Positions 3,698-36,558 of a stretch of DNA of 64,000 nt are shown piece after piece; the first letter of the stretch is position 1, and each line of letters opens with the position of its first letter. Both the position numbers and the translations under genes were made by a program. The notes beneath the pieces are model-generated. The model saw only the letters and a list, made by a program, of their open reading frames with translations, was not told the origin of the DNA and ran no database searches. The DNA is from an uncultured Verrucomicrobiota bacterium (lineage in GTDB: Bacteria > Verrucomicrobiota > Verrucomicrobiia > Opitutales > Opitutaceae): NCBI GenBank assembly GCA_903898675.1, contig CAIUGM010000031.1:62001-126000 (forward strand), in the 5' to 3' direction.

Positions 3698-3770
3698 GTC
3701 GGGGCGCAGACTTGCTGCGCCCTCGAACGTGATGCCATCCACGTAGGGCGCAGCAAGACTGCGCCCCTAC
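3698..3770. repeat. GGGGCGCAGACTTG palindromic element (family F2)
   Basis: The tips GTCGGGGCGCAGACTTG and AAGACTGCGCCCCTAC pair almost perfectly. Same family and same 73-base length as 1505-1577. Confidence 0.88.
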
Positions 3771-3827: not shown

Positions 3828-6359
3828 ATGGAATTCTCCCTCGAAACCAAGACCGCCAGCCTGAGCGTGGGCGAATTCGCCGGCTTCTCGCTCGGGCCCC
3901 AGGATTCCGGCGGCGGTCCCCAGGGTATCTGGCGCGCCCAGCTGGGCCAGCATTGGCATAACGAACTCCGCCAGCGCACGCTCAGCGAGTCGCCCACCGC
4001 CCAGTTCGAAATCGTGATCGAGGGCCGCCTGATCCACCGCGGCTGGACCTTTGTCCTCGCCGGCCGCATCGACCAGCTCGTTGGCGACACGCTACGCGAA
4101 ATCAAGAGCGTCATGCGCACCCTGCCTGCGGAAGAGTCCGAACTCCGCACCGACTATCCGTCCTATTTCCTGCAGCTGGCCGCGTATGCCGTCTTGGCAA
4201 GAACTTCGGCTCTCAGCTCTCCACTCTCAGCTCTCAAACTTTCTTCCCTCCGCACCGAACTAGTCTTCGTCGAGGCCAACTCCGGCCTCGCCCAGAGCAT
4301 CCCGCTCACGCCGTTCGACGAGGCCCTCGTCTTCCACCAGCTGGATGCTCTGGTGGAATTCCTCAACCTGCGGCTGCGGGCATCCACCCGCCGGCGCGCG
4401 CTGGAGTTTCGCTCGCCGTTCACCGAGCTCCGGCCAGGCCAGGAAACGATCCAGGCGGATCTGAGAGCAGCCTTTGGCTGCGACGAGAGTCGGAAGTCGA
4501 AGGTCGAAGGCTTACAGCCTGACTCCGCGGCCCTCGATCTTCGCCGGTCGACCTTCGACTCTCGACCTTCGACTATTCTACTGTTCGAAGCCCCCACCGG
4601 CTACGGCAAGACCGGCTGCGTCCTGGAGTTCGCCCTCGGTCAGCTGCGCACCGGCCGGTTCGCCCGCCTGATCTGGCTCACCGGCAAATCCACCGGCCAG
4701 ATCCAGGTGGTACACACCCTCGAGCAGATGACCACCCCGGCCATTAGTAACGCAATACGTTACAAGTCGCCCTTGGCCTACTGGCAGGTGCGCAACAAGT
4801 CGGAGCACTGCGTGAACCACACGTTCCACTGCGTGCGCGACGGCTGCGACTACCTGGCCGGGGCGGCGGAACGCTGGCCGGGCAGCGGGCTCGCCAAGTT
4901 TTACCTCGATGACCATCAGCCGCATGACCTCGGCTCGCTGCGCGAGGCCGGTCGCGCCGCCCGGGTCTGCCCGTACGAGATCACCCGCACCGTCCTCGCC
5001 TTCAACGATGTCTGGATCGGCGACTTCAACTACGTCTTTGCCCCTGACAACCGCGGCCTCTTCTTCGAGCAACCCGGCTTCGATCCGGCCGAGACGCTGC
5101 TCGTCATCGACGAGGCGCACAACCTGCCCTCGCGGGTCGCCGGCGCCTATTCGCACCGCGCGGACGAAAGCGACTTCCGCCTGCTGCTGGCCGAGCTGGA
5201 TCACCTGCAGGCGCCGGCGCCGCTGGTGTTCGCCGTGGAGGAATGGACCCGCCTGCTCGCGTCGTTGCAACCGGTGGACTCGCTGGACCCAACCGTGGAG
5301 GCCGAGGTGCGCGATCTGGTCGCGAAGCTGGCCAACCTGGTCAGCACCATGCCGCTCGACTACGTCGCCCTCGGGCCGAAGCACTCCGAAACCCTCTGGC
5401 AGTTCGCCGCGCTCGAGGACTTTTTGGCCGACGCCCAGCTGACCAGGCTGCTGTGGGTCGCACGGGCCGGGGAACTGGAATTCACCTGCATCGAGGCCGC
5501 CGCCGCCATCGGCGAGACGCTGCGGCGTTTCGGCGGCGCGCTGCTGATGTCGGCCACGCTGCAGCCGTATGAGGCGTTTGCGAGTTCGTGCGGGCTGAAC
5601 CCAGGCGGGAGCGAGCTTGCTCGCGACATCCCCAATCTCGCGAGCAAGCTCGCTCCCACAACGAACTACACCACGCTCCACGCCCCCACGCCCTGGCGCG
5701 CCGGGGCCTACGATGTGGCGGTCGATCTGCGCGTCGACACCTCCTACCGGCAGCGGGCCGGCTATTACGGCACCACCGCCGAGACGATTGAAAAGCTGCA
5801 CGCCGCGAGCGCCCAACCGCTCATCAAGTCGTGCGTCGCGGTCTTCTTTCCCTCCTACGCCTACGCCGAGGCCGTGCAGCGGGCCTTGGAAAACGACGGC
5901 TCCGTGCTGCGCGTGGCGCTGCAACCGCGGCTGCCCGACCTCGCGGCGCAGACGGCCTGGGTGGAGGAGAACCTGGCGCTGGCCGACGCCATTTTCCTCG
6001 TGCTCGGGAGCAGCTTCGCGGAAGGCATCGACCTGCTCGGCGGCCGCGTCACCCACGCCATGGTCGTCGGCCCCGCGCTGCCCGAGGTCAACGCCGTGCA
6101 AAAAGCGCGGATGGACGCCCTCGCCGGTACCGGCCGCGACGAGGCTTTCCGTCGCGTCTACCAGATCCCCGGCCTGCAGAAGGTGAACCAGGCCCTCGGC
6201 CGCCTCGTCCGCGCGCCCGGCCAGAAGGCCAAGGTCCTGCTCCACTGCCGGCGCTTCGCCGAGCCGTCCTACGCCGCCCTGCTGGCCACCGACTACCAGT
6301 TCTTCAGCGAGATCGCGACGGATGCCGACCTCGCTGGTTGGTTGCAAAAAGTCACTTGA
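3828..6359 (+). CDS. PD-(D/E)XK nuclease fused to a DinG/XPD-like Fe-S DNA helicase
   Basis: An 843-residue protein. Residues about 30-125 look like a RecB/Cas4-type nuclease fold: Asp in GRIDQL, EIK of LREIKSV and the QLAAYAVL helix. Then come motif I EAPTGYGKTG, a cysteine-rich region typical of the XPD 4Fe-4S domain (Cys in EHCVNHTFHC, DGCDY and RVCPYE), the DEAH box VIDEAHN, MSATL, and the C-terminal motifs FAEGIDLLGG and QALGRLVRAPGQK. DinG/XPD enzymes unwind DNA 5' to 3'; the nuclease suggests a role in repair or processing. Several in-frame repeat insertions (4205-4240, 4489-4574, 5607-5657) lengthen it. The ATG at 3828 follows a half-repeat. Confidence 0.87.
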   Translation: MEFSLETKTASLSVGEFAGFSLGPQDSGGGPQGIWRAQLGQHWHNELRQRTLSESPTAQFEIVIEGRLIHRGWTFVLAGRIDQLVGDTLREIKSVMRTLPAEESELRTDYPSYFLQLAAYAVLARTSALSSPLSALKLSSLRTELVFVEANSGLAQSIPLTPFDEALVFHQLDALVEFLNLRLRASTRRRALEFRSPFTELRPGQETIQADLRAAFGCDESRKSKVEGLQPDSAALDLRRSTFDSRPSTILLFEAPTGYGKTGCVLEFALGQLRTGRFARLIWLTGKSTGQIQVVHTLEQMTTPAISNAIRYKSPLAYWQVRNKSEHCVNHTFHCVRDGCDYLAGAAERWPGSGLAKFYLDDHQPHDLGSLREAGRAARVCPYEITRTVLAFNDVWIGDFNYVFAPDNRGLFFEQPGFDPAETLLVIDEAHNLPSRVAGAYSHRADESDFRLLLAELDHLQAPAPLVFAVEEWTRLLASLQPVDSLDPTVEAEVRDLVAKLANLVSTMPLDYVALGPKHSETLWQFAALEDFLADAQLTRLLWVARAGELEFTCIEAAAAIGETLRRFGGALLMSATLQPYEAFASSCGLNPGGSELARDIPNLASKLAPTTNYTTLHAPTPWRAGAYDVAVDLRVDTSYRQRAGYYGTTAETIEKLHAASAQPLIKSCVAVFFPSYAYAEAVQRALENDGSVLRVALQPRLPDLAAQTAWVEENLALADAIFLVLGSSFAEGIDLLGGRVTHAMVVGPALPEVNAVQKARMDALAGTGRDEAFRRVYQIPGLQKVNQALGRLVRAPGQKAKVLLHCRRFAEPSYAALLATDYQFFSEIATDADLAGWLQKVT
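4205..4240. repeat. In-frame CTCTCAGCTCT direct-repeat tract in the helicase gene
   Basis: CTCTCAGCTCT occurs twice in tandem, and the region encodes a Ser/Leu-rich stretch (SALSSPLSALKLSS) between the nuclease helix QLAAYAVLA and the strand ELVFVEAN. It resembles a single arm of the TCTCAACT element found in purL at 32481-32568. Confidence 0.55.
4489..4574. repeat. In-frame palindromic element AGTCGAAGGTCGA inside the helicase gene
   Basis: The left arm (4489-4510, GTCGGAAGTCGAAGGTCGAA) and right arm (4545-4573, GTCGACCTTCGACTCTCGAC and onward) are reverse complements with few mismatches. About 28 codons are added directly before motif I (EAPTGYGKTG), and the frame is kept. Confidence 0.8.
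4747..4763. repeat. Small palindrome GTAACG-CAATA-CGTTAC in the helicase gene
   Basis: A perfect 6-bp-arm palindrome lies in a locally AT-rich patch of an otherwise very GC-rich gene. It encodes SNAIRY. It may be the remnant of another inserted element. Confidence 0.4.
5607..5657. repeat. REPIN-like element with perfect 20-bp arms, in frame inside the helicase gene
   Basis: The left arm GGGAGCGAGCTTGCTCGCGA (5607-5626) and right arm (5638-5657) are exact reverse complements over 20 bases, with an 11-base spacer. Each arm is itself partly palindromic (GCGAGC..GCTCGC). The arm strongly resembles the REP consensus I know from Pseudomonas. The 51 bases equal 17 codons and read GSELARDIPNLASKLAP within the helicase. 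Confidence 0.88.
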
Positions 6360-14246: not shown

Positions 14247-14343
14247 TTGGCCACGAAAAACACAAGAAACACGAAAAGCAACGATACCGGTAACCCGCTC
14301 AGGTCTATTTCCTTTTTGTGTTTCTAGTGTTTTTCGTGGCCAA
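14247..14343. repeat. TTGGCCACGAAAAACAC...GTGTTTTTCGTGGCCAA palindromic element
   Basis: Outer arms pair almost perfectly over about 20 bases (TTGGCCACGAAAAACAC with GTGTTTTTCGTGGCCAA). The architecture of short CACGAAA units matches the elements at 28979-29050 and 31119-31190, so it is a sister family. It lies 5 bases after the cmk stop. Confidence 0.88.
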
Positions 14344-28978: not shown

Positions 28979-29050
28979 TCACCACGAAACACACGAAATA
29001 CACGAAAAGGAAAGCCCTGCTTTCGTGTGTTTGGCGTATTTCGTGGTGGC
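28979..29050. repeat. CACCACGAAACACACGAAA...TTTCGTGGTGGC palindromic element (72 bp) between purF and purM
   Basis: The left arm TCACCACGAAACACACGAAA and a right arm ending TATTTCGTGGTGGC pair imperfectly. Same 72-base length and design as 31119-31190, but with CACGAAA in place of CACGGAA. Half-copies are at 35581-35610 and, decayed, at 18072-18098. Confidence 0.88.
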
Positions 29051-29053
29051 TCA

Positions 29054-30967
29054 TCAGTAACTCCGGCCCTCGGCCTTTTCGAAATAGTTCACGTACGCCT
29101 GGTTCACCACGCGGTAGCCGCCGGGAGTCGGATATTTGCCGGTAAAATACCAGTCGCCGGTATGGTTCGGCAGGGCGAGGTGCAGGTTCTCGATCGACTG
29201 GAAGATGATCTCGATCTCGCCCGACCAGCCGTTGGGCTTCGGCGAGACCAGCTGGGTGATCCGGGCCGAGATTTCCTCGGCGGTGAACGGCTCGTAGATC
29301 CGGCGCACATGGTTGACCGGCTCGGCCGCCGGCGTCTTCAGTTCCGCGCGGCAAAGATTGTAGACCTCCGCGATGATCGAGTTCTGTCCGCGCTCCTTGA
29401 GCAGCGAGATGGCGGCCTCGAAGGCGACAAACTTGCCGATCTCCGACATGTCGATGCCGTAGCAGTCGGGGTAGCGGATCTGCGGCGCGGTCGAGGCGAT
29501 GATGATCTTTTTCGGGTTCAGCCGCTTCAGGATGCGGAGAATCGAGCGGCGGAGCGTCGTGCCGCGCACGATCGAGTCGTCGACGCAGACCAGGTTGTCC
29601 GCCGGCTGGACGACGCCGTAGGTGACATCGTAGACGAGCGAGGCGAGGTTGTTGCGCGATTTTTCCTGGCTGATGAACGTGCGCATCTTCACGTCCTTCG
29701 TGACCAGCTTTTCCGCGCGCGGCCAGTTGTTGAGGATCAGGTCGTCGACCAGCGCCTCGGTCACCCGGCCGGCCTTGGCGGCGTCGAGCAGGGTTTGCTT
29801 GACCTCGGCGCGGCGGCGAAAGCGCAGCTCGCTCATCAGGCCGAAGTAGGCCACCTCGGCGGTGTTGGGGATGAAGCTGAAGACGGAATTAGCCAGGTCG
29901 CCGCCAATGGACTTCCAGATCTGGTCCGTGAGGCCGGCGCCGAGGGCCTTGCGCTCGCGGTAGATGTCGGCGTCGTTGCCGCGCGAGAAATAGATGCGCT
30001 CGAAGGTGCACTGCGTCTTCGGCAGCGCGGCGCGGATGCGCTCCACGGTCACGGTGCCGGCCTTCTTCATCACCACGGCGCAGCCCGGCTCGACCTCGCC
30101 CACCTGGGTGGCGTCGAGCTCGAACACCGTGCAGAGCGGCGCGCGCTCGGAGGCGAAGGCCACGACCTCGTCGTTCTCAAACCAGTGGCACGGGCGGATG
30201 CCGGACGGGTCGCGCGCGACAAACGCGTCGCCGTTGCCCAGCACGCCGACCAGCGAGTAACCGCCGTCCCAGTTGGCGGCGGCGGTGCGGAGCACGCGGG
30301 CGGGGTCGACCTCCTCGTTGATCCGCCGCGAAATCTCGGTGCCGGGCAGGCTCTGCGCCTTCAGGGTGCGGTAAAGCTGCTCGTGCTCCTCATCGAGGCA
30401 GAACCCGATGCGCTCGAGGATGGCCTGCGTGTCGGTGGCGAAGATGGGATGCTGGCCGATCGCGATGAGGCTGTCGTTCAACTCCGCGGTGTTGGTCAGG
30501 TTGAAATTGCCCGCGAGCATCAGGTTGCGGGTCGGCCAGGAGCTGCGGCGGAAAAAAGGATGACAGGCGCTGAGGTTGTAGCCGCCGGAGGTGCCGTAGC
30601 GCAGGTGCCCGAGGTAAAGCTCGCCGCAGAAATCGAACTTCTGCTTGGCCGTCTCCGGGAATTCCGGGTGCACCGCGCCCTCGGCCACCAGGGCGTTGTA
30701 GCGGCCGAGCAGGGCCTGGAAAATCTTGTCGAGCGGGTTGGTCTCCACGTTGCGCTCGCGGAACATGTAGGGTTCGCCCGGCGGCACATCGAACTTCACG
30801 CAGGCCACGCCCGCGCCGTCCTGGCCGCGGTTGTGCTGCTTCTCCATCAGAAGGAACAGCTGCTGGAAGCCCCACAGCGGGGTGCCGTACTTTTCCTGGT
30901 AGTAGGCCAGCGGCTTCTTGAGCCGCACCAGGGCGATCCCGCATTCGTGGCTGATGAATTCGCTCAT
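29054..30967 (-). CDS. purF: Amidophosphoribosyltransferase (first step of purine synthesis)
   Basis: A 637-residue enzyme, longer than E. coli PurF (505). The glutaminase nucleophile is Cys9 in [11 protein letters not shown], so an 8-residue propeptide is probably removed. [21 protein letters not shown] and ACHPF-like stretches define the Ntn domain; the PRPP-binding loop [16 protein letters not shown] defines the phosphoribosyltransferase. The extra length is mainly in the middle and a C-terminal tail beyond about residue 560. Divergent from purL across 292 bases that contain one palindromic element. Confidence 0.92.
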
Positions 30968-31259
30968 GCAGTGGAACGACGTTCGGTACCGGCCGGTTTA
31001 CCCTGCCCGTTACCCGCTACTCGATGATCACTCTTGGGTTTCAAGTCAGTTGATTTCGAGGAGCCAAAGCGAATGGTCAACGGCTTTCTCAGCCCCCAAC
31101 AGTAAAGAACCGGAGGGGTGCCCACGGGACACACGGAATACATGGAAAATGAACCTCTTTCTTCCGTGTATTCCGTGTGTTCCGTGGGCAGATCCGTATC
31201 ATACCGGCTCAGCTCACTTGACGCATCGGCGTTGTTCGCGAACATCCCGCTTTCTGACC
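30968..31259. other. purF-purL divergent intergenic region
   Basis: This 292-base region must hold both pur promoters. Its centre carries the 72-bp palindrome at 31119-31190; the rest is moderately AT-rich. I see no clear PurR-like operator. Confidence 0.6.
31119..31190. repeat. TGCCCACGGGACACACGGAA...TTCCGTGGGCA palindromic element (family F1, 72 bp)
   Basis: Outer tips TGCCCACGG and CCGTGGGCA are exact complements, and the inner ACACGGAATAC and GTATTCCGTGT units also pair. It is 72 bases, a multiple of three, and one strand is stop-free in the frame that encodes the purL copies ([10 protein letters not shown]...SVYSVCSVG). Confidence 0.92.
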
Positions 31260-34200
31260 ATGTTGATCCTCCGCGGCTCACCTGCCCTCTCCCCGTTCCG
31301 CCTCCAGAAACTCCTCCTGGATCTCATCGCCGCGGGCCTCCCGGCCCAGGCCGTCAGCGCCGAGTTCGTGCATGTGGTGGAAACCGAGGTGGAACTGGCG
31401 GCCGACCACCGGGCCACCCTCGACCAGCTCCTGACCTACGGGCCGACCCGCGCCGCCGCCGCCGTGACCGGGCTCGTTCAGGTCGTCGCCCCCCGCCCGG
31501 GCACCATCTCGCCCTGGTCCTCCAAGGCCACCGACATCGCGCACATCTGCGGCCTGGCGGCAGTCAAACGCATCGAGCGCGTCATCGCCTTCACCATCGA
31601 CTGCGGCGGCCCGGCGCCGGTCTTCCCGCTCTCGCCCCTGGACGCGGCCCAGCTCCAGACGCTCCGGGCCAAGCTGCATGACCGGATGACCCAGGTGGTG
31701 TTCGGTGACCTGGCCGCCTGCGCGGCGCTCTTCCGCCATGAGGCACCCCGGCCCATGCGCAGCGTGCCCGTGCTCGCCGCCGGCCGGGCCGCCCTGGTCG
31801 CCGCCAACCTCGATCTCGGCCTCGCGCTGGCGGAGGACGAGATCGATTACCTGGTGCAGGCCTTCACGACACTCGGGCGCGACCCGCACGACATCGAGCT
31901 GATGATGTTCGCGCAGGCCAACTCCGAGCACTGCCGCCACAAGATCTTCAACGCCACCTGGGATATCGACGGCCAGCCGCAGGACCGCTCGCTGTTCCAG
32001 ATGATCAAGAACACTTACGAGCTGCACAGCACGGGCATCCTGTCGGCCTACAAGGACAATGCGGCGGTGCTCACCGGCACCCGGGGTGGACGCTTCTTCT
32101 CCGACGCGAAGACCAACGAGTACGCCGCGCACGACGAGGAAATCCACCTGCTCTGCAAGGTGGAGACGCACAACCACCCGACGGCGATCTCCCCGTTCCC
32201 GGGCGCGGCCACGGGTTCCGGCGGCGAAATCCGCGACGAGGGCGCCACCGGCCGCGGTTCCAAGCCCAAGGCCGGCCTCACCGGTTTCACGGTCTCCAAC
32301 CTGCGCCTGCCCGGCGCGATCCAGCCCTGGGAAAAGGACCACGGCAAACCCGGCCGCATCGTGTCCGCCCTGGACATCATGCTCGAGGGCCCGCTCGGCG
32401 GCGCCGCCTTCAACAACGAATTCGGCCGCCCGGCGATCAACGGGTACTTCCGCACGTATGAAGCCGAGGTGCCCTCGGCGGTTGAAAGTCACAAGTTGAA
32501 AGGTGAAAACAAGGGCGGCAAATCCGGCGGATCGGTCTCTCAACTTTCAACCTTCAACTCTCAACTCCACGCCACGGAGTGGCGTGGTTACCACAAACCA
32601 ATTATGTTGGCCGGCGGGCTCGGCAACATCCGTGCGGACCACATCAAGAAGGGCGCCATCAATCCGGGCGACCGGTTGATCGTGCTCGGCGGGCCGGCGA
32701 TGCTGATCGGGCTCGGCGGCGGCGCGGCGAGTTCGCTTGCGAGCGGGTCGGGCAACGAGGACCTCGATTTTGCCAGCGTGCAGCGCGACAACGCCGAGAT
32801 GGAACGGCGCTGCCAGGAGGTGATCGACCGTTGCTGGGCGCTCGGCGACGAAAACCCCATCTCGTTCATCCACGACGTCGGCGCCGGCGGCATCTCCAAC
32901 GCGCTCCCCGAGCTCGTCAACGACGCCGGCCGCGGCGGCCGCTTCCAGCTCCGCGCCGTGCCCAACGATGAACCCGGCATGTCCCCCCTCGAGATCTGGT
33001 GCAACGAGTCGCAGGAGCGCTACGTCCTCGCCGTGCCCGCCGCGCAACTCGAGGTCTTCCAGCAACTCTGCGCGCGCGAACGCTGCCCCTTCGCCGTGGT
33101 CGGCGAGGCCACCGCGCAAAAGCAACTCGTGCTCGAGGACTCGCATTTCAAGAACACCCCGATCGACCTGCCCCTCGAAGTCCTCCTCGGCAAACCCCCG
33201 CGGATGCAGCGCTCGGATAATTCATTAGTTCGTCCCCTTACAGCTTTAAACCTTACGTCCTTAAACCTAAAGGACGCGGTCCACCGCGTCCTTTCCCACC
33301 CGGCCGTCGCGGACAAGACCTTCCTGATCGCCATCGGCGACCGCACGGTCGGCGGCCTGATCTGCCGCGACCAGATGGTCGGCCCGTGGCAGGTGCCGGT
33401 GGCCGACTGCGCCGTGACCGCCGCGGCCTTCGACGTGTACACCGGTGAAGCCATGGCCATGGGTGAACGCACGCCCGTCGCGGTGAACAGCGCCGCCGCC
33501 TCGGCCCGGCTCGCCGTCGGCGAAGCTCTGACCAACCTCGCCGCCGCGCAGATCGGCGACCTCGGCCAGGTCAACCTGTCCGCCAACTGGATGGCCGCGC
33601 CGGCGATCCCCGGCGACGGCGCCGACCTTTACGCGGCGGTACGGGCCGTCGGAATGGAGCTGTGCCCCGCCCTCGGCATCACGATCCCGGTCGGCAAGGA
33701 CTCCATGAGCATGAGCACCGCCTGGCAGGAAGGCGACCAGGACAAACGCATCACCGCCCCGGTCTCGCTCATCATCTCCGCCTTCGCCGCCGTCAGCGAC
33801 ATCCGGCTGTCGCTGACTCCTCAACTGCAATATGAAAGAAATTTGCCCACAGAACACACGGAACCCACCGCAGCCGGATCAGTTAAATCCGATCAATCCG
33901 TGGTTAAGAATCAGCATTCCGTGTCTTCAGTGTATTCCGTGGGCAGTACTCCGGAGTCTTTACCCATTGGCGATACGGTTCTGCTTTTGATCGATCTCGG
34001 TCGGAGCAAGAACCGCCTCGGTGGTTCCATCCTCGCGCAGGTCGTCTCCCAGACCGGCGAGGCGCCGCCGGATGTCGACCAACCGGCCGACCTGAAGAAT
34101 TTCTGGAACGCCATCCAGCAGCTCGGCCGCGAAAAGCGAATCCTCGCCTACCACGACCGCTCCGACGGCGGCCTGCTTACCACGGTGGTGGAAATGGCTT

Positions 34201-35465
34201 TCGCCGGCCACGTCGGCGTGGACCTGGAAATCCCTCACCTGCACGACCCGTTCCCCGCCCTCTTCAACGAGGAACTCGGCGCCGTCATCCAGGTGCGCGA
34301 GGAGGATTTCGACGAGGTCTACCTGACGCTGCGCCAGCACGGGTTGAAGGCGTGTGTCTCCCGGATCGGCACGTTGAACACCCATTACGCGCTCCGCGTG
34401 AAGCAATCCGGTCAGGAACTCTTCAACGAGAGCCTGACCTCGCTCCGCGCGATCTGGTCTGACGTTACCCACCGCATCGCGAAGCTGCGCGACAACCCCG
34501 CCGCCGCCGACTCCGAGCACCAGGGCCGGCTCGATCAGGGTGACCCGGGAATCACGCCGGTGGTCACTTTCGATCTCGGAGTTTTGCCCACAGAACACAC
34601 GGAACCCACCGCAGCCGGATCAGTTAAATCCGATCAATCCGTGGTTAAAAATCAGTATTCCGTGTCTTCAGTGTATTCCGTGGGCAAAAACCGGCCCTCC
34701 GTGGCGATTCTCCGCGAGCAGGGCGTGAACGGCGAGGTCGAGATGGCCGCGGCGTTCACCCGTGCCGGGTTCAAGGCGGTCGATGTCCACATGACGGACA
34801 TCCTCAGCGGCCGCGTGTCACTGAAGGATTTCCGCGGGCTCGCGGCCTGCGGCGGGTTCAGTTACGGTGACGTCCTCGGCGCCGGCGAAGGCTGGGCCAA
34901 GAGCGTCCTGTTCAACGACCATGCCCGTTCCGAGTTCGCCGCCTTCTTCCAGCGCGAGGACGCCTTCGGCCTCGGCGTGTGCAACGGCTGCCAGATGATG
35001 AGCAACCTGAAGTCGATCATCCCCGGCGCGGACCACTGGCCGCGCTTCGTCCAGAACCAGAGCGAGCGCTACGAGGGCCGCTTCGTGTCCGTGAAAATCG
35101 AACAGAGCCCCAGCATTTTCTTCCGCGGCATGGCCGGTTCGGTCCTCCCCATCGCCGTCGCCCACGGCGAGGGCTACGCGGAATTCGCCGACGCGGCCGC
35201 CATGCAGGCCTGCAGCGGCTCCGGCCTGGTTTCAGCCCGTTTCGTGAATAACAAACACGAGATCACCCAGCAGTATCCGCTGAACCCGAACGGATCGCCG
35301 CTCGGCATGACCGCCCTCACCACGACCACCGGCCGCGTCACGATCATGATGCCCCACCCCGAGCGCGTCCACCGCAGCGTCTGCATGAGCTGGTCGCCCA
35401 AGGACTGGCCGGAGGACAGCCCCTGGATGAAGCTGTTCTACAACGCGCGGGCCTGGGTGGGTTAG
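31260..35465 (+). CDS. purL: Phosphoribosylformylglycinamidine synthase, single-chain type, with in-frame palindromic insertions
   Basis: A 1401-residue enzyme (E. coli PurL 1295). It makes FGAM from FGAR, ATP and glutamine. Domains in order: N-terminal, two ATP-grasp-like synthetase halves ([17 protein letters not shown], then [20 protein letters not shown] and PVGKDSMSM), and a C-terminal glutaminase with Cys in [10 protein letters not shown] and the PHPERV His-Glu pair. Against the E. coli protein, extra segments lie after [10 protein letters not shown] (32481-32568), after TPQLQ (33844-33945) and before the glutaminase (34585-34686); they coincide with repeats and keep the frame. The start is the ATG at 31260; extension upstream would read through a repeat. 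Confidence 0.95.
32481..32568. repeat. In-frame TTGAAAGT...CAACTTTCAA palindromic insertion in purL
   Basis: The left arm (32481-32508, with GTTGAAAGTCACAAGTTGAA) and right arm (32536-32568, with CTCAACTTTCAACCTTCAAC) are imperfect reverse complements. It encodes a hydrophilic segment ([20 protein letters not shown]...) between TYEAEVPS and [13 protein letters not shown], where E. coli PurL has only a short loop. Confidence 0.85.
33229..33270. repeat. TTAAACCTTACG-type repeat arm inside purL
   Basis: CCCCTTACAGCTTTAAACCT followed by CCTTAAACCT resembles the right arm of the element at 366-488. It encodes [13 protein letters not shown] at the junction between LLGKPPRM and DAVHRVL. The total length there equals E. 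coli PurL, so it may have replaced, rather than lengthened, a loop. Confidence 0.45.
33844..33945. repeat. 102-bp palindromic element, copy 1, translated inside purL (family F1)
   Basis: Tips TGCCCAC and GTGGGCA are exact complements; the arms carry ACACGGAA and TTCCGTG units. The 102 bases (34 codons) keep the frame and encode [11 protein letters not shown]...SVSSVYSVG between TPQLQ and VLLLIDLG. The core GTTAAATCCGATCAATCCGT resembles 62961-62986, so the element seems composite. Confidence 0.93.
34585..34686. repeat. 102-bp palindromic element, copy 2, translated inside purL (family F1)
   Basis: Identical to 33844-33945 except two bases (one silent, one His to Tyr). Same orientation and same reading frame, 741 bases downstream. 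It occupies the linker between the synthetase part (VTFDLG) and the glutaminase domain ([17 protein letters not shown]). Confidence 0.93.
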
Positions 35466-35686
35466 TTAGGGCACGTTACGGCAGGACCAAACCCAGCACC
35501 GAAAGCCAAGTGGTTCACCATTTCGTATCGCCATGAGCCAATACCAGATTGGTTTATCTTAGTTCTCCCCCCCGTCATTCTTTCGTGTATTTGGTGTATT
35601 TCGTGGTGGCATCCGTCATCTGGGATCGGGGCCAGACGATGAAATAGAGTTCATTAGTCAGGCAAAACCGTTCTTCATTCCCTGCC
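35466..35686. other. Intergenic region between purL and the receiver gene
   Basis: No gene seen. It holds the half-element TTTCGTGTATTTGGTGTATT and onward to TCGTGGTGGC (35581-35610), the right arm of the 28979-29050 family without its left arm, and probably the promoter of the downstream receiver. Confidence 0.6.
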
Positions 35687-36067
35687 ATGCGCCCCAACAT
35701 CCTGACCGTCGACGATTCCAAGGGCATGCGGCTCATGGTCCAGCAGGCCCTGCGCCCCTTTGATTGCGACGTGAACGAGGCCAGCAACGGCTTCAATGCG
35801 TTCTTCGCCATCGAACGGGCCAAGACCGACCTCATCCTCCTCGACGTCAGCATGCCCGTCATGGACGGCTTGGAAACCCTCACCCGCCTCAAGGCCGCCC
35901 CGGAGCTCGCGGGGATCCCGGTCATTATGCTCACCTCTCCGGCCGACCACGCGGTGATTCCGCAACTCGCGGGGATGGGGGCGATTGGCACCTTGATGAA
36001 GCCGTTCGACGAGGCCGCGCTCGTCGCGGCCGTGCGCCGGGTCCTGAAGCTGGAGCCTGTCGGCTAA
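35687..36067 (+). CDS. Single-domain response regulator (CheY-like)
   Basis: A 126-residue receiver without an output domain. The acidic pair is in ILTVDDS, the phosphorylated Asp in LILLDVSMPVMDG, the conserved Thr in VIMLTSP and the Lys in GTLMKPFD. Such proteins relay phosphate or bind a target when phosphorylated. No kinase or chemotaxis gene is adjacent; the kinase at 21952 is an orphan that could be its partner. Confidence 0.95.
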   Translation: MRPNILTVDDSKGMRLMVQQALRPFDCDVNEASNGFNAFFAIERAKTDLILLDVSMPVMDGLETLTRLKAAPELAGIPVIMLTSPADHAVIPQLAGMGAIGTLMKPFDEAALVAAVRRVLKLEPVG

Positions 36068-36487: not shown

Positions 36488-36558
36488 CTGTAGCCGGGGT
36501 CGCTGACCCCGGTCTGATAGCCCGATACGGGCACCGGGATCAGCGATCCCGGCTACAG
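36488..36558. repeat. CTGTAGCCGGGGTCGCTGACCCCGG palindromic element (family F9)
   Basis: The left arm CTGTAGCCGGGGTCGCTGAC and right arm GATCAGCGATCCCGGCTACAG pair with one or two mismatches, and the inside GGGGTC..GACCCC and GGGATC..GATCCC form minor hairpins. It lies between two small genes. Confidence 0.88.

Follow-up and report, generated by a model that had tools for sequence, protein, structure and literature searches.

The best-known examples of in-frame palindromic repeats within bacterial genes come from the intracellular group Rickettsia. The Rickettsia palindromic elements (RPEs) are described as about 150 bp long, falling into ten families and lying in frame in genes (PMC10969869); they are short repeats in metabolic and other genes, whose products probably work (PMC10969869, PMC3733652). 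Intragenic REPs of the GTAG type are reported to be most numerous in Opitutus terrae, where both uvrA genes carry double REP insertions and GTGG variants are noted (PMC3733652). MITEs combine a small size with inverted ends and no coding capacity (PMC10969869, PMC3733652), and coding palindromes, perfect and up to 284 bp long, are described in mitochondrial genes of Nematomorpha (PMC6649704).

We analysed a 64,000-nt stretch of DNA (the window; G000:C31:62001-126000), part of a 3.52-Mb draft genome of an uncultured Opitutaceae bacterium in 40 contigs, in which the purL gene carries two nearly identical 102-nt copies of a repeat. This is a phenomenon of the RPE and intragenic-REP kind: the palindromic insertions are in frame in an open gene, copies of the same family are found elsewhere in the genome, and the predicted PurL with its inserts keeps its reading frame and its family matches. 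The resemblance to RPEs is one of description; the host is Opitutaceae-like and the arm structure unrelated, and a single gene is struck here by many kinds of repeat and holds a near-identical twin. With the intragenic REPs the purL copies share the bacterial group, the in-frame position and the double insertion of some genes (PMC3733652), but they have neither the GTAG/CGTC tag nor the short hairpin unit of a REP, ending instead in TGCCCAC/GTGGGCA, a distinction that the GTGG variants of O. terrae make less sharp; nor was an association with a RAYT seen, the flanks of the only Y1 transposase gene found being devoid of family arms. Sections 15 and 16 of PMC3733652 do not name purL as a host, although a REP in the O. 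terrae purL may already be listed in its supplement. The 29-nt arms fall within the 15-30 bp or so of MITE terminal inverted repeats, whereas target site duplications are absent from the rows inspected (see below) and no parent transposon was found. The Nematomorpha palindromes are likewise inverted repeats inside coding sequence, but they are mitochondrial, and the opening of the abstract of PMC6649704 mentions no dispersed family with intergenic copies. A literature search, covering mainly openly available papers in their main text, found neither this repeat class nor purL in the role of a host described, and searches with short strings of such repeats gave matches unrelated by title. As far as these literature searches go, the class is unnamed, and the repeat class, the purL hotspot with its turnover and the twin copy within one gene all seem to be new. 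Here a process akin to that of Rickettsia would strike an enzyme of core biosynthesis in a different phylum, the repeats varying between sister species and a fresh twin copy lying in one gene. The natural series of empty, single and double sites would allow both the tolerance of the enzyme and the spread of the repeats to be measured.

The purL gene and its two repeat copies

The features in and around purL are the following (window coordinates).

31119..31190, unstranded: intergenic member of the repeat family to which the purL copies belong, a short way upstream of where purL starts (29-nt arms, 93% complementary)
31260..35465, plus strand: purL, phosphoribosylformylglycinamidine synthase, the host gene (1401 aa; NCBIfam PRK05297, Salmonella PurL, Pfam domains)
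32481..32565, plus strand: site 1, an inverted repeat that is also in frame but not of the kind of the two copies (GTTGAAAG...; 26-nt arms, 77% complementary)
33216..33275, plus strand: site 2, low-GC stretch (GC 0.38), aligned ungapped to Salmonella PurL
33844..33945, plus strand: site 3, repeat copy 1, in the linker after the PurM_N-like domain (sequence match, alignment, Pfam)
34585..34686, plus strand: site 4, repeat copy 2, in the linker before the glutaminase domain (sequence match, alignment, Pfam)

PRK05297 is matched over its full length by the 1401-aa PurL, to which Salmonella PurL chains also align. Since these alignments begin at position 31260, the likely start of the protein is there, at Met 115 of the open reading frame. 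Both 102-nt copies lie in this one frame and leave purL intact, at the coordinates and in the common frame given in the initial annotation. They are identical at 100 of 102 positions, and the two differences that had been pointed out were found again: G/A at position 65 is silent (Lys, AAG/AAA), and C/T at position 72 exchanges His for Tyr. A shared leading TT extends the match to 104 nt, and identity ends at the ends of the element. The term palindrome, used from the start for these copies, fits the tips, where TGCCCAC and GTGGGCA are exact, and applies loosely to the 29-nt arms; beyond the tips, arm complementarity is incomplete (39-nt arms at 74% in copy 2). Folded as DNA, copy 1 gives -14.9 kcal/mol (z -2.17).

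By sequence comparison, the match between the copies is not due to chance: copy 2 finds copy 1 with an E value of 3.7e-45, while the full-length genome matches that follow reach 71 and 72% identity, and the loop of the two copies is common to no other genome match among the matches listed. The near identity had earlier been taken to point to recent insertion or gene conversion; recent copying is supported by the 100 identical positions of 102 and by this loop.

Both copies occupy linkers. Pfam places a PurM_N-like domain at residues 685-844, directly followed by site 3, and site 4 precedes GATase_5 (1145-1400). The segments had been said to be short in E. coli PurL, and they are short in PurL of Salmonella, the organism compared here. 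In an alignment with 80 named PurLs, all but two of which (78) lie outside the order and which by title are nearly all Gammaproteobacteria, sites 1, 3 and 4 measure 8-16, 9-13 and 16-33 residues, against 41, 54 and 46 in this PurL; the best matches among the 80 are two Opitutales-like proteins, from an Opitutus sp. MAG and from Puniceicoccaceae K14. The same two inserts were not encountered in distant PurLs, and they are also absent from G002, the row joined to this PurL on the tree described below. An AlphaFold2 model of residues 215-1401 (mean pLDDT 73.1, pTM 0.80) has Salmonella PurL entries as its closest PDB structures (TM-score 0.86 by query length). Its pLDDT block means of 23-44 and 30-53 for the two inserts agree with a linker position, and they hint, if weakly, that the inserts are disordered, because segments with conserved residues (model residues 89-132 and 266-297) also fall below 50.

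All 100-nt windows of purL with a GC content of 0.52 or less start in bins around sites 1 to 4. The site-1 repeat has a GC content of 0.47, compared with 0.66 gene-wide, and corresponds to a gap in the Salmonella PurL alignment. The site-2 stretch is possibly the remnant of a one-armed repeat, a reading made uncertain by the fact that its length equals that of Salmonella PurL there; it has no second match in a 464-kb sample of this genome. Rfam gave no match in 30900-35700.

The repeat family and other inverted repeats of the genome

The purL copies belong to a dispersed family. The pattern CACGGAA-NN-CACGGAA with at most one mismatch has 202 matches in the genome, against one for the reversed pattern, and blast gives 45 matches at E <=0.001. 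Typically, an element consists of TGCCCACGGAACACACGGAATACACGGAA, then a loop, then the inverse; the arms are built of 7-nt CACGGAA units at 9-nt spacing, and the ends are TGCCCAC/GTGGGCA. Two-armed rows measure 57-137 nt (n=22, two with shifted registers), with arms of 29 nt. The blast and pattern lists yielded 60 loci, of which 58 were examined and reduced to 39 distinct elements; among these, the purL pair alone is placed in sense within a gene. Open-frame and coding scores flagged five loci: both purL copies, plus three others that occupy two places. These three (L018, L296 and L026) were rejected as intragenic, since they lie between called genes of the other strand; L206 and L212 were rejected too, being misplaced readings near a contig end. 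The genic filter applied to 30 CRCRGAG loci missed the true purL case (L229), and one more of the 30 (L203) may be genic.

No target duplication of at least 3 bases was seen in 25 rows (four with shifted registers, five cut one unit short), nor in a repeat of the test on 22 rows (a single shifted register and one or more wrong ends among them). Single consensus arms, looked at for a REP-like unit hairpin, fold weakly (-1.8 and -0.5 kcal/mol). The sole Y1 transposase gene found in the genome (L081, G000:C9:57238-57720, open frame of 345 aa) has no family arms or inverted repeats in its 1.5-kb flanks; these reveal no link between the transposase and the family, on which the enzyme could nonetheless act in trans. 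Elsewhere, at G000:C14:131500-133550, CACGAAA-type palindromes are nested in the loop of CACGGAA-type palindromes (L004, L012, L017, L027).

How unusual purL is was assessed from inverted repeats scoring at least 15 in the 464-kb sample (400 kb of contig C14 plus the window). There are 47, of which 41 lie outside called genes at a gene coverage of 0.88; one third-order Markov sequence of 400 kb contained none at score 15 and five at 13. Six carry a genic label: purL copy 2, a repeat upstream of the likely purL start, another situated 33 nt after a called start, and one each in a DinG-like helicase gene, an Mfd-like gene and an open reading frame without a Pfam match; copy 1 scores below 15. 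Stretches of 200 kb from two relatives gave 4 of 38 (G012) and 3 of 21 (G023) labelled genic, purL among them in both. An enrichment of inverted repeats in purL is likely but not established, since both stretches were chosen to contain purL and some genic labels are doubtful: one of the G023 matches lies upstream of its purL start, and one in G012, with a 117-nt loop, may be due to chance.

Other families were noticed in passing. The perfect-tipped inverted repeat GGGAGCGAGCTTGCTCGCGA, at 5607-5657 of the window, is in frame in the DinG-like helicase gene (3828-6359); its family recurs in the same phase (GSELARD...ASKLAPT) in the Mfd-like gene (G000:C14:105700) and at about nine other places in the genome. 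The GGGAGCGAGC family shows a common phase in the DinG-like gene and in Mfd, which a copy at C20:32330 does not share. Intergenic inverted repeats of still other families, some of GTAG type, occur in the window at 1505-1577, 3698-3770, 14247-14343, 28980-29048 and 36488-36558.

Repeat turnover in PurL linkers and the probable origin of the twin copies

A protein search of 57 genomes gave a match in 50. The 37 family members (G000-G036) include two with no match (G008, G031) and three whose fragments were left unaligned (G005, G015, G020), so that 32 rows, this genome included, were compared, four of them partial (G006, G007, G013, G017); order-level genomes, which all match weakly except G046, were left out. 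Repeat kinds were assigned by eye from the DNA. On this basis, site 3 bears a palindromic repeat in 13 of the 32 rows, eight kinds in all, and none in the other 19:

Site 3, CACGGAA: this genome, G035
Site 3, CACAGAG: G019, G004
Site 3, AACGGAG: G012
Site 3, CGCGGAG: G009
Site 3, CACAAAA: G017
Site 3, GTAGGGGCG: G010, G011, G014
Site 3, GTAGCCGGGG: G003, G023
Site 3, GTGGCACGGG: G036

At site 4 a repeat, not always two-armed, was recognized by eye in 14 of the 32 rows:

Site 4, CACGGAA: this genome
Site 4, CGCGGAG: G009, G014
Site 4, CACAAAA: G017
Site 4, CACAGAG: G024
Site 4, CACGAAG-like: G036, G018
Site 4, GTGACAAG-like: G010, G012, G023
Site 4, tandem CAGGTYT or CTCAGCT, no second arm: G019, G004, G016, G011

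Site 1 holds several further kinds in relatives, and GTAG-type repeats are among those present in PurL linkers. Site 2 is lengthened in G011, G014 and G033 (L073, L074, L075), with a SRDDEAIQPDGSPRRD-like sequence in two of them, and looks like the seat of another repeat kind. The idea that the unit type in purL follows the main type of each genome was dropped, G024 not fitting it.

A quick maximum-likelihood tree was built from 28 rows, without the four partial ones and without the insert columns; 10 of its 25 inner branches are weak. On this tree the labels change at least 12 times at site 3 and at least 12 times at site 4; presence alone at site 3 needs seven changes. The sister rows G012 and G004 differ at both sites. 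Twin states are found again in relatives: the site-3 and site-4 copies of G017 are identical at 63 of 71 positions, and the three copies of G009 agree at 65/85, 70/91 and 63/89, the last being the site-3 and site-4 pair. Taken with the copy pair described above, these cases mean that both linkers came to share one repeat kind more than once, in separate lineages. In this bacterial family, PurL linkers look like recurrent landing sites for repeats.

Very probably, then, a genome-wide palindromic repeat landed in frame in two PurL linkers, one copy being a recent copy of the other. Each would be translated as about 34 hydrophilic residues, and the newer copy would derive from the older through local transposition, or else through copying between two linkers in which such repeats were already present. 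The repeats would move by a process that leaves no target duplication; landings would be widespread, selection retaining those whose length, frame and place spare the enzyme. We propose that the copies are kept because the linkers tolerate them: PurL linkers would be forgiving, so that repeats keep being gained and lost, and no function of the peptides need be assumed. Gene conversion, in which both linkers held older family copies and one overwrote the other, would be a sub-case of this reading. It is supported by the same-kind pairs of G017 and G009, and by G035, which has at site 3 the kind found in this genome; against it, identity stops at the element ends and both sites are free of repeats in G002, the nearest row, which leaves conversion plausible though somewhat short of probable. 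Slightly more tentatively, the PurL linkers may form a long-lived landing pad in a core enzyme, visited by at least eight kinds of repeat, and the heptamer arrays (inverted arms of C-R-C-R-R-A-R units at 9-nt spacing) may be an undescribed class of mobile palindromes that copy from linker to linker inside the gene, supplying ready-made disordered linkers.

It is unlikely that we are dealing with REPs or MITEs that owe their movement to a transposase of a known kind (a RAYT or a DDE enzyme). The genome does have a Y1 transposase gene, and GTAG-type repeats occur in the purL linkers of relatives and elsewhere in this genome, but the single arms lack a REP-like hairpin fold, target duplications were missing from both sets of rows, and no such arms lie beside the Y1 gene. 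An adaptive role of the inserts, with peptides or mRNA hairpins tuning PurL (for example how the glutaminase domain folds, or how translation proceeds between domains), might be suggested by the repeated use of the same linkers and by the single phase of all 12 two-armed elements; yet sister species have unrelated repeats at a given site, the majority of rows have no palindromic repeat at site 3, and in half of the 12 cases the phase used is the only one without stops, so that we consider this explanation decidedly improbable. As to an assembly duplication, the genome is indeed a 40-contig draft, but the copies have separate flanks, keep the frame, differ by two bases and have a similar twin state in G017; a copy is, besides, shorter than usual reads, and such an artefact is very hard to credit.

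The question of phase deserves a closer look. The 12 two-armed CRCRRAR elements of the purL rows all share a single reading phase (TE/AE/TK on the left arm, SV/SA-like on the right). Selection on the peptide was rejected as the reason, the common phase being largely forced by stop codons in the other phases in six of the 12. The remaining six (five events, the copies of this genome counted once) have one or two further phases open, and the product of the phase chances over the 12 is 0.01, a value that counts the twin twice and is biased by later mutation. The common phase is thus weak evidence for peptide selection.

The 2-nt spacers between the units were compared as well. In 22 pairs of CRCRGAG arms they are complementary at 17 of 88 positions, against 31.5% after shuffling, but the notion that spacers are less complementary than shuffled ones was given up when a wider set of 32 elements came out near chance (equal in 5 of 32, where 4.9 would be expected; counted by base, 19 of 64 compared with 23.2, p 0.16). 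What can be kept from the sequences is that the spacers of the two arms are not paired above chance. The CACGGAA rows of this genome (n=22) have a higher spacer match, 56 of 88, owing to an almost invariable A as the second base of the spacer. In the CACAGAG class of relatives (32 elements), the 7-nt units recur, the search pattern itself having fixed them, and the spacers of the two arms pair no more often than by chance, as though recognition depended on the units and not on the hairpin.
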